DNA from: an uncultured Clostridia bacterium
Lineage (GTDB): Bacteria; Bacillota; Clostridia; Christensenellales; UBA1750
Assembly: GCA_947625765.1 (NCBI GenBank)
Contig: CANQPP010000002.1
Coordinates: forward strand, 1 to 64,000
DNA length: 64,000 nt
Reading direction: 5' to 3'
Part shown: positions 48,150 through 53,147 of the stretch, one piece after another
Layout of the letters: each line of letters starts with the position of its first letter
Numbering within the stretch: the stretch's first letter is position 1
Made by a program: the position numbers and the translations under genes
Notes under the pieces: generated by a model
Databases searched by the model: none
What the model saw: only the letters and a program-made list of their open reading frames with translations
Told to the model about the DNA's origin: nothing

Positions 48150-48226
<77 letters not shown>

Positions 48227-48258
48227 ACCTCAGCGCGGCGGTCGTCCCTGGCAGGCAT

Positions 48259-48336
48259 GGTGGATATAGCTCAGTTGGTTAGAGTGCCAGGTTGTGGCCC
48301 TGGAGGTCGTGGGTTCGAGCCCCACTATTCACCCCA
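48259..48336 (+). tRNA. tRNA-His (GTG)
   Basis: Extra 5' G, anticodon loop TTGTGGC, encoded CCA. Confidence 0.93.
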
Positions 48337-48407
48337 CTTCAATTTCACACGCCCAAGAGGCTTCCGCCTCCTGTCGTTTCGGCGGGAGATGGGGTGGGTC
48401 GAAGCGT

Positions 48408-48482
48408 TGGGGTGTCGCCAAGTGGTAAGGCCCGGGACTTTGACTCCCGTATTCGTAGGTTCGAGTCCTGCCACCCCAGCCA
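48408..48482 (+). tRNA. tRNA-Gln (TTG)
   Basis: TGGGGTG/CACCCCA acceptor, loop CTTTGAC, encoded CCA. Confidence 0.93.
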
Positions 48483-48492
48483 ATCCCAACAC

Positions 48493-48568
48493 GACCCATT
48501 AGCTCAGTTGGCAGAGCACTTGACTTTTAATCAAGGTGTCCGGAGTTCGAATCTCCGATGGGTCACCA
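48493..48568 (+). tRNA. tRNA-Lys (TTT)
   Basis: GACCCAT/ATGGGTC acceptor, loop CTTTTAA, encoded CCA. Confidence 0.93.
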
Positions 48569-48591
48569 AGTTTTTTCCATCGGAAGAACAT

Positions 48592-48675
48592 GCGGGCGTG
48601 GCGGAATGGCAGACGCGCCAGACTTAGGATCTGGTGCCCTAGGGCGTATGAGTTCAAGTCTCTTCGCCCGCACCA
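48592..48675 (+). tRNA. tRNA-Leu (TAG)
   Basis: GCGGGCG/CGCCCGC acceptor, long variable arm, loop CTTAGGA, encoded CCA. Confidence 0.92.
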
Positions 48676-48695
48676 TCTTCCCCTTTTCGGAGCGT

Positions 48696-48770
48696 GCGGT
48701 AGTAGCTCAGTGGTAGAGTGCCACCTTGCCAAGGTGGATGTCGCGAGTTCGAATCTCGTCTACCGCTCCA
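48696..48770 (+). tRNA. tRNA-Gly (GCC)
   Basis: GCGGTAG/CTACCGC acceptor, loop TTGCCAA, encoded CCA. Confidence 0.93.
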
Positions 48771-48804
48771 TTTTTCCTTCTTTCCCCTTGCGCGGACCTC
48801 ACAC

Positions 48805-48878
48805 GCGGGTGTAGCTCAATGGCAGAGTTCCAGCCTTCCAAGCTGGCTGTGTGGGTTCGATTCCCATCACCCGCTCCA
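48805..48878 (+). tRNA. tRNA-Gly (TCC)
   Basis: GCGGGTG/CACCCGC acceptor, loop CTTCCAA, encoded CCA. Confidence 0.93.
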
Positions 48879-48894
48879 AACTATCCCCGGTTAT

Positions 48895-48970
48895 GGACCG
48901 CTAGCTCAGTTGGTAGAGCACCTGACTCTTAATCAGGGTGTCCAGGGTTCGAGTCCCTGGCGGTCCACCA
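48895..48970 (+). tRNA. tRNA-Lys (CTT), copy 1
   Basis: GGACCGC/GCGGTCC acceptor, loop CTCTTAA, encoded CCA. Confidence 0.93.
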
Positions 48971-49006
48971 ACAAAAGGCCTTTCCCTTTTACTTCCGCTT
49001 CGATAC

Positions 49007-49082
49007 GGACCGCTAGCTCAGTTGGTAGAGCACCTGACTCTTAATCAGGGTGTCCAGGGTTCGAGTCCCTGGCGGTCCACCA
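49007..49082 (+). tRNA. tRNA-Lys (CTT), copy 2
   Basis: Identical by eye to 48895-48970. Confidence 0.93.
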
Positions 49083-50632: not shown

Positions 50633-51430
50633 TTACAGCTTGTCCTTGGTGTAGAAGATCCAGTGCTCATTGTCGATCATGTGCCGGTAGCCCTCGCCGC
50701 CGAACCATGCCTGCGGCAGGTCGTCCTTGCCGCCCGTGCGCAGGAGGTCCTCAGCGCAGTCCTTCAGCTGGTCGATGAAGGACGCGGGCGTGGTCTCTAT
50801 GCCGTGGCCCATGGCCATGCGGTCGAACTCGCCGCGCCAGGGGTCGAGGCCGTTGAGGCTTTCCAGCAGGGTCCGGATGGAGGTGGAATGGTCCAGCTGC
50901 ATCCACAGCTGGTGGCAGAGGGCGTCGCCGGTGAACAGCGTGCGGCTCTGCCTGTCCAGCAGGCACAGGCTGCCGGGGGTGTGCCCGGCCACCAGAATGG
51001 CCTCCAGAACGCGGCCGCCCAGGTCGATGGTATCGCCCGGCTGTATGTCCTTTAAGGGGCAGGGCTTGGCCTTGCCGCTCTCGATGAGGGACAGGGCGTA
51101 GCGCTTAGCCTCTCCCTCGGGCTGGCTGCGGACGTAGTTCTCATAGTCGGCGAAGAACTCGTCGTGGATGGCCCAGTCCGCACGGTTCAGATACGCCTCG
51201 TCAAAGAACATGTTGCCGTAGATGTGGTCGCAGTGGCCGTGGGTGTTGAACACCACGAGGGGCTTGTCCGTCACCCGCCGGACCAGCGCGTGCAGGTCCT
51301 CCAGGCCGTTCAGCGTGTCCACGATCAGGGCCTTCTCTGGCCCCTCCACCACGTAGCAGGTGGATTCGCCCGCGTCGTCGATCAGCGTGATGCCGTCGCC
51401 CAGCGGGTAAAAGCGCGCTCTTTGCTGCAT
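50633..51430 (-). CDS. MBL-fold metallohydrolase
   Basis: VFNTHGHCDHIYGN, VAGHTPGSLCLLDRQSRTLFTGDAL. Confidence 0.88.
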   Translation of the reverse strand: MQQRARFYPLGDGITLIDDAGESTCYVVEGPEKALIVDTLNGLEDLHALVRRVTDKPLVVFNTHGHCDHIYGNMFFDEAYLNRADWAIHDEFFADYENYVRSQPEGEAKRYALSLIESGKAKPCPLKDIQPGDTIDLGGRVLEAILVAGHTPGSLCLLDRQSRTLFTGDALCHQLWMQLDHSTSIRTLLESLNGLDPWRGEFDRMAMGHGIETTPASFIDQLKDCAEDLLRTGGKDDLPQAWFGGEGYRHMIDNEHWIFYTKDKL

Positions 51431-51589: not shown

Positions 51590-51618
51590 TTGCAGACGGC
51601 CGCGGAACATGCTATGAT
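51590..51618 (+). promoter_or_regulatory. Promoter TTGCAG-17-TATGAT
   Basis: Hexamers at 51590 and 51613; predicted start a few nt before the structured leader. Confidence 0.6.
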
Positions 51619-51629
51619 ATACAGGATAA

Positions 51630-51800
51630 AAGGGAGTAGCCTGCGCCCGCTTCCCGGGCGTTGTGCGCGCGCGTCACCCCGGCGGCACGGCTCGTTCGTC
51701 CGCCCGCGGCCACATGAAAAGGCGAGACTTTTTTCGGATGCGGAGGAGTTTTTCTCCCCACCCGGAAAAGGCCTCGTTTTTTTGTTGGCGTCCCCCCTTT
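51630..51800 (+). ncRNA. Riboswitch-like structured 5' leader (yybP-ykoY-like motifs; class unconfirmed)
   Basis: AAAGGGAGTAGCC at the predicted 5' end and GGCGAGACTTTTTT at the 3' side, with GC hairpins between. Confidence 0.45.
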
Positions 51801-51836
51801 TGCAAATCGACCAAAAGAAAGGTAGTGAACCCCCTC

Positions 51837-52982
51837 ATGGAGCTGCTCTTTGGCGACCTCATGGCCATCGCGCCTCTGGAATGGGCGAAGATGGTCGCCA
51901 TGTGGGTCATCGGCGGCCTGCTCATCTATCTGGCCATCAAGAAGGATATGGAGCCCTCGCTGCTGCTGCCCATGGGCTTCGGCGCGATCCTGGTAAACCT
52001 GCCCATGTCCGGCGCGATCACCCAGACGATCAACGGCGTGGTGGAGGAAGGGCCGCTGTCCGTGCTGTTCGACGCGGGCATCGCCAACGAACTCTTTCCC
52101 CTGCTGCTGTTCATCGGCATCGGCGCGATGATCGACTTCGGCCCGCTGCTGACCAACCCCAAGATGATGCTCTTCGGCGCGGCGGCGCAGTTCGGCATCT
52201 TCTTTACGCTGGCCATGGCCGCGCTGATGGGCTTTGACTTAAAGGACGCCGCCTCCATCGCCATCATCGGCGCGGCGGACGGCCCCACCTCCATCTTCGT
52301 GTCCAACTACTTCCACAGCAACTATATAGGGCCCATCATCGTGGCGGCCTATTCCTACATGGCGCTGGTGCCCATCGTGCAGCCGCCGGTCATCCGGCTG
52401 CTGACCACGAAGAAGGAGCGCCTCATCCGCATGCCCTACGAGCAGAAGAACATCTCCAAGACCACGCGCATCCTCTTCCCCATCGTGGTCACGGCCATCG
52501 CGGGGCTGGTCGCGCCGCGCTCGGTGGCGCTGGTCGGTTTCCTGATGTTCGGCAACCTGTTGCGCGAATGCGGCGTGCTCAACTCCCTGTCCGAGACGGC
52601 CCAGAAGGTGCTGGCCAACCTCATCACCCTGCTTTTAGGCCTGACCGTGGCCGTGCGCATGCAGGCCGATATGTTCTTGAACCTGCAGACGCTCATGATC
52701 CTGGCGCTGGGCCTCGTGGCCTTCATCATGGACACCGCGGGCGGCGTGCTCTTTGCCAAGATCCTGAACCTGTTCACCAAGAACAAGGTGAACCCCATGG
52801 TCGGCGCGGCGGGCATCTCCGCCTTCCCCATGTCCTCCCGCGTGGTGCATAAGATGGGCCTCAAGGAGGACCCGCAGAACTTCCTGCTCATGCACGCGGC
52901 CGGGGCCAACGTGGCCGGCCAGATCGCCTCCGTCATCGCCGGCGGCCTCATCATCAAGCTGATCGAGTCCCTCATCGCCTAA
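51837..52982 (+). CDS. Na+-translocating decarboxylase beta subunit (OadB/GcdB/MmdB family)
   Basis: GIGAMIDFGPLLTNPKMMLFGAAAQFGIF, IIGAADGPTSIFVSN, HAAGANVAGQIASVIAGG. Confidence 0.93.
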   Translation: MELLFGDLMAIAPLEWAKMVAMWVIGGLLIYLAIKKDMEPSLLLPMGFGAILVNLPMSGAITQTINGVVEEGPLSVLFDAGIANELFPLLLFIGIGAMIDFGPLLTNPKMMLFGAAAQFGIFFTLAMAALMGFDLKDAASIAIIGAADGPTSIFVSNYFHSNYIGPIIVAAYSYMALVPIVQPPVIRLLTTKKERLIRMPYEQKNISKTTRILFPIVVTAIAGLVAPRSVALVGFLMFGNLLRECGVLNSLSETAQKVLANLITLLLGLTVAVRMQADMFLNLQTLMILALGLVAFIMDTAGGVLFAKILNLFTKNKVNPMVGAAGISAFPMSSRVVHKMGLKEDPQNFLLMHAAGANVAGQIASVIAGGLIIKLIESLIA

Positions 52983-53009: not shown

Positions 53010-53147
53010 ATGCAGACGAACTTTCAGGTCTTTCTTTCCACGCTGCCCGTCGTGGGCTACGGCATGGGCGGCGTGTTCCTGGTGATCCTGCTCATCATGG
53101 GCGTCACCTGGCTCTTCAACAAGGTCACATCCGGCAGGGACGAATAG
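53010..53147 (+). CDS. 45-aa single-TM protein, candidate OadG/MmdE-like accessory subunit (absent from supplied ORF track)
   Basis: AGGAAAGGAG upstream; MQTNFQVFLSTLPVVGYGMGGVFLVILLIMGVTWLFNKVTSGRDE*. Confidence 0.75.
   Translation: MQTNFQVFLSTLPVVGYGMGGVFLVILLIMGVTWLFNKVTSGRDE

Follow-up and report, generated by a model that had tools for sequence, protein, structure and literature searches.

A yybP-ykoY-type leader, probably a Mn2+ riboswitch, upstream of an orphan oadB paralog in Clostridia

Which signal, if any, is read by the structured leader that precedes an oxaloacetate decarboxylase-type membrane subunit in an uncultured Clostridia bacterium? The leader lies in the window, the whole 64,000-nucleotide stretch of DNA analyzed here. 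The preliminary description had recognized a riboswitch-like leader, noted a resemblance to the yybP-ykoY motif and favored a Na+-sensing class on account of the downstream gene. With its conserved, covarying structure, its mutually exclusive strands and its gene context, the leader is very probably a riboswitch of the yybP-ykoY (Mn2+) class that acts by transcription antitermination. The gene itself, oadB2 (51837-52982, plus strand), encodes an orphan OAD_beta paralog of 381 aa, as assigned by Pfam (PF03977, E=1.6e-155) and a phylogenetic tree, and carries an SD-like AAAGGTA at 51818-51824. It is followed by mini-oadG (53010-53147, plus strand), which encodes 45 aa with one TM segment, matches positions 6-33 of the 76 in PF04277 below threshold and is kept after the oadB2 orthologs. 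On the other side, a divergent gene for a metallo-beta-lactamase-fold protein (50633-51430, minus strand; Pfam PF00753) adjoins the leader. Elsewhere in the window are a cluster of nine tRNA genes (48150-49079, plus strand) and a match to RF01405 (34415-34527, plus strand; 71.9 bits, above the gathering score), the STnc490 family, a Salmonella Hfq-binding RNA whose clostridial occurrence is unexpected.

Transcription would start from a promoter-like element at 51590-51618 (plus strand), consisting of TTGCAG (51590-51595), a 17-nt spacer and TATGAT (51613-51618). The -35 sequence is weak (3/6 consensus positions), while the -10 sequence matches in 5/6 and is extended by an upstream TGC. The promoter named in the preliminary description is thus present, and promoter-like pairs are enriched before 62 oadB leaders (score 9.4/12 versus 7.6 after shuffling), with a median distance of 9 nt between the -10 sequence and the aptamer.

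The aptamer (51626-51734, plus strand) adopts a compact three-helix arrangement that is supported by covariation and scores 68 bits with R1, a covariance model built from 25 oadB leaders only; as the window leader is one of these 25 sequences, the score is not independent. Its switch helix P1.1 is formed by AAAAG (51628-51632) and CTTTT (51728-51732), and P1.2 by GCC (51639-51641) and GGC (51721-51723), a pairing that covaries among leaders. Between the two helices lies L1, with the 5' strand GGAGUA (51633-51638), invariant in the alignment of orthologous leaders, and the 3' strand GAGA (51724-51727). The complete strands read AAAAGGGAGTAGCC at 51628-51641 and GGCGAGACTTTT at 51721-51732. The P2 hairpin (51643-51661) is followed by the P3 arm (51662-51714), composed of P3.1 (51662-51673 with 51705-51714), the one-sided 7-nt loop L3 (UCACCCC, 51674-51680) and the P3.2 hairpin (51681-51704), all on the plus strand.

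Many orthologous oadB leaders can be aligned over their full length, and this comparison carries the structural assignment. Among the 25 oadB leaders, 89% of cells are paired in the named structure versus 73% after shuffling, 20 of the 27 pairs in P1, P2 and P3 change on both sides, and the covariation score reaches 0.504, compared with 0.204 for shuffled alignments and at most 0.131 when the structure is slid. The CGUCA of the L3 region is invariant (25/25), and RNAalifold, run unaided, recovers essentially the same P1-P2-P3 structure. A match to the structure model was found upstream of oadB in 38 of 80 close relatives, some of which served to build the model. Taken alone, the aptamer has a folding stability that is ordinary for its composition (z = -0.23), so its support is comparative; single-sequence energy favors a shifted P1 register (-44 kcal/mol versus -35 kcal/mol for the comparative structure). 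At the position of P4, the window has a UGAAAA linker, and neither a P4 arm nor a four-way junction is present. A hairpin occupies this position in two orthologous leaders (L059 and L064) and is missing from two mntP leaders (L272 and L279), so P4 varies inside the set; it was therefore treated as an optional, non-defining feature of the class.

Downstream, the aptamer merges into an intrinsic terminator (51719-51783, plus strand), whose hairpin (51719-51780) has a predicted energy of -30 kcal/mol (z = -4.2) and is followed by T7 at 51777-51783. The near-repeats that had earlier suggested alternative pairing turned out to be the two arms of this one hairpin; they look alike because each arm reads AAAAGG...CTTTTTT or the complement of that pattern. 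The 5' arm coincides with the 3' strand of P1.2, L1 and P1.1, which makes aptamer and terminator mutually exclusive. A terminator that captures the 3' strand of the aptamer is found in 19/20 oadB, 15/15 MntP, 32/33 exchanger and 30/30 ATPase leaders; in the 20th oadB leader, no T run meets the terminator criterion. In L. lactis, Mn2+ stabilizes P1.1 and thereby blocks an overlapping terminator (PMC11087558). Homology to L. lactis yoaB suggests that the ligand likewise switches the window element on. In the default OFF state, the GGCGAGACUUUU strand would enter the terminator hairpin 51719-51780 as the polymerase leaves the aptamer, and transcription would end in the T tract. Mn2+, bound between L1 and L3 and contacted by N7 of A51676, would allow P1.2 and P1.1 (51628-51641 with 51721-51732) to keep the GGCGAGACUUUU strand, thus blocking the terminator and permitting transcription of oadB2 and mini-oadG.

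The assignment to the yybP-ykoY class, suspected in the preliminary description, is borne out by L1, L3 and a set of targets consisting mostly of cation exporters. The window element shares with the L. lactis yoaB aptamer (RF00080 class) the P1.1/L1/P1.2, P2 and P3.1/L3/P3.2 layout, the L1 strands GGAGUA and RAGA, an L3 of UCA plus 4 nt, and a P1.1 3' strand that is also part of an intrinsic terminator. The L3 of L. lactis reads UCA41AUUC, with A41 providing the N7 contact to Mn2+ (PMC6754395); by sequence comparison, A51676 occupies the position of this adenosine, and the following AUUC is replaced by CCCC in the window. By analogy, the ligand would be Mn2+ or a close divalent ion. Differences from the known representatives include the lack of the P4 arm found in the crystallized aptamers, an orphan oadB2/mini-oadG pair as the target, and the fact that the element is missed by RF00080.

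This last point matters, as the preliminary description had proposed that Rfam covariance models and the conservation of the leader in orthologous loci decide the question. The Rfam search gave no RF00080 match in the window or the whole genome, and at the leader only chance miRNA-like matches to the terminator hairpin appeared at gathering and relaxed thresholds; the DUF1646 Na+ motif also gave no match there. The RF00080 miss is misleading, however, since this model is insensitive here: it scores several mntP leaders of the class with 24-28 bits, below its gathering threshold of 45, which is a curators' cut-off and no biological feature, and it reaches a sub-threshold E=0.001 for one orthologous oadB leader (L005). 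Many clostridial members of the class are therefore missed by the Rfam model, and it is the purpose-built model and the conservation of orthologous leaders that establish the element. Applied to two 8-kb stretches of E. coli (16 kb), R1 matches nothing but the leaders of mntP and alx, and these weakly (16.8 bits, E 0.014 and 13.4 bits, E 0.11, respectively). The clostridial RNAs add to an established class and escape its current Rfam model. A related case is RF02617, "Streptococcus sRNA 10", which matches L009:1217-1334 with 35 bits, below its gathering score. Its consensus shows the full Mn2+-riboswitch layout with a terminator (GGGAGUAGC ... CGUCA ... UGAAACAGCGAGACC), and it resembles the window element in layout, in a UGAAA-type linker without P4 and in the overlapping terminator. 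It differs in being catalogued as an sRNA and is probably a cis-acting leader that was filed as such.

Although built from oadB leaders, R1 finds matches in 152 of 391 Clostridia genomes (E<=0.001). Among 113 matches whose next genes were inspected, 33 precede Na+/Ca2+ exchangers, 30 P-type ATPases, 20 OadB, 15 MntP and 5 ABC ATPases, with the remaining 10 preceding other genes (TerC among them) or none; target classes were called by sequence motifs, and examples of the main types were confirmed with Pfam. MntP, P-type ATPases and TerC are also targets of yybP-ykoY riboswitches. The window genome itself carries a second such leader before mntP (L273:2113-2257, contig C14), with a long L3 and an overlapping terminator. 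Both deep branches of the OadB2 clade include members with the riboswitch. Its distribution on the tree requires 22 state changes, and well-supported branches impose at least 9 of them. An early association that was lost repeatedly would agree with this pattern, with repeated gain as a possible alternative. No match to the riboswitch model was found at the operon OadB loci examined. In the literature searched, no paper links the yybP-ykoY class to OadB, and a published gene list may already name oadB. Mn-type aptamers also stand before genes for SPFH/band-7-like proteins, a CitMHS-family transporter, an M48 peptidase, a KUP-like transporter and ABC ATPases; targets without an obvious Mn2+ link occur at L138, L179, L211, L212, L142, L173 and others. 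At one locus (L163), tandem aptamers (151-243 and 295-383) precede a single P-type ATPase gene.

The L3 loop divides these leaders into two subtypes, which raises the possibility that some of them recognize another ion. A long L3 (GUCAACA..., the ACA type of X. oryzae) is present in 13/13 readable mntP leaders, and the short L3 of L. lactis (UCA plus 4 nt) in 19/19 oadB and 30/30 Na+/Ca2+-exchanger leaders, while ATPase leaders are mixed (19/8). The difference between mntP and oadB is pronounced (Fisher p = 3e-9, uncorrected for relatedness), and in five genomes, the window genome and G001, G002, G086 and G186, a long L3 before mntP coexists with a short L3 before oadB2. Since variants of the yybP class with other divalent ligands are expected by Breaker's group (PMC7266159), a variant sensing another divalent ion, with Ca2+ as the obvious candidate, could control the exchangers, ATPases and OadB2. 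Both types have been crystallized, however, the short one from L. lactis and the long one from X. oryzae, and both bind Mn2+ (PMC6754395), so a different ligand does not follow from the split. In addition, neither the sensing A nor L1 has changed, and the sequences are related, which means that the L3 split is not fully independent. A variant with a different divalent ligand is hence improbable, and a different threshold or ion between the subtypes is possible.

Control of a Na+ pump by a Na+-responsive riboswitch, the option preferred in the preliminary description, suits the family to which OadB belongs, and some Na+-I riboswitches (DUF1646 motif) do precede oxaloacetate decarboxylase genes (PMC9337991). 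The Na+-I riboswitch is a different RNA, though, with no match here: the leader contains no Rfam Na+ motif even at E<=10, 33 oadB loci that lack a Mn-type element yielded none at the gathering threshold, the fold, L1 and L3 are those of the Mn2+ class, and the other targets of the element are mostly divalent-cation exporters. Na+ sensing is accordingly very unlikely. Still less credible is a leader devoid of an aptamer, in which an ordinary terminator stands behind a constitutive promoter or a leader peptide mediates attenuation. Translation from an in-frame ATG at 51714 would indeed run as M-K-R-R-D-F-F into the terminator, yet this ATG lies in the variable P3/linker region, is missing from most orthologous leaders and has no visible SD before it, and neither the invariant L1 and L3 nor the compensatory changes agree with such a leader. 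As a leader-peptide start, this ATG was rejected for its lack of conservation.

The description of the target as a decarboxylase subunit has to be qualified as well. The preliminary description was right about the OadB family, and the protein is an orphan paralog that shows signs of a lost alpha-subunit partner. The window genome encodes two OadB proteins. The operon OadB (contig C5) lies beside a carboxyltransferase and a PYC_OADA protein, with a 122-aa gamma frame alongside, whereas OadB2 is followed only by the 45-aa gamma and has no adjoining alpha gene. In the sampled genomes, operon gamma frames span 108-153 aa, compared with a median of 45 aa behind the riboswitch-bearing orphan OadB. 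In the Salmonella OAD complex, gamma contacts alpha through its tail (residues 61-84; PMC7274780); mini-gamma is too short to contain this tail and would not contact alpha in the same manner. OadB2 and operon OadB form separate clades (support 100). Glu40, Asp203, Asn373, Ser382, Asn412 and Ser419 are kept in 116/116 OadB2 sequences, and these include the Na+-binding residues of the beta subunit, Asp203, Ser382 and Asn412; the equivalent of Asp203 in the window protein is Asp148. Substitutions occur at Arg304 in 109/116 and at Asn311 in 77/116, versus neither in operon OadB (0/20); alanine at either position moderately inhibits decarboxylation and has little effect on Na+ binding (PMC7274780). 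OadB2 therefore resembles the beta-gamma complex of oxaloacetate decarboxylase (PDB 6iva/6iww) in its OAD_beta family and Na+-site residues, and departs from it in the frequent replacement of Arg304 and Asn311, the tail-less gamma of ~45 aa and the lack of an adjacent alpha.

OadB2 is encoded in 123 of 393 Clostridia genomes (~31% of the sample). About 119 of these 123 (compared by eye) also contain PYC_OADA, as do 328/393 overall and 18/20 and 36/38 genomes with a riboswitch-preceded oadB. Co-occurrence was considered as proof that OadB2 is independent of alpha and rejected, since PYC_OADA is found in nearly all OadB2 genomes; an alpha subunit acting in trans is thus possible. In four OadB2 genomes (G439, G098, G345 and G458), neither PYC_OADA nor an MmdA-type carboxyltransferase was found; completeness is 100%, 96% and 91% for the first three, G458 having no figure, and G439 contains only AccA/AccD-like halves. 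In G345 (L124), the riboswitch stands before an exchanger gene, and oadB2 begins ~25 nt after that gene. At another locus (L080), the gene behind the riboswitch is mntP, and oadB2 lies beyond a gap of ~289 nt that contains a hairpin.

The orphan context, the residue changes, the genomes in which no alpha was found and the shared riboswitch loci suggest the hypothesis that OadB2/mini-OadG belongs to a Mn2+-efflux set as a cation transporter and does not form part of a decarboxylase. With much less certainty, the pair may help to clear excess Mn2+ or supply the Na+ gradient for Mn2+ exchangers. A tentative version of this idea, which we regard as a reasonable possibility falling somewhat short of even chances, is that the pair has lost the decarboxylase and exports Mn2+ or a related divalent ion on its own, coupled to Na+ or protons and activated by the Mn2+ riboswitch; if true, it would be a kind of metal-efflux transporter so far undescribed. 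The two L3 subtypes that track target genes make the ligand question of yybP variants directly testable. The Mn2+ riboswitch regulon is extended to a gene that nobody would call a manganese gene, and a "decarboxylase subunit" of ~31% of the sampled Clostridia genomes becomes a candidate metal-efflux transporter. An orphan Na+-pump subunit under a Mn-type switch points to a possible unrecognized manganese-export system.
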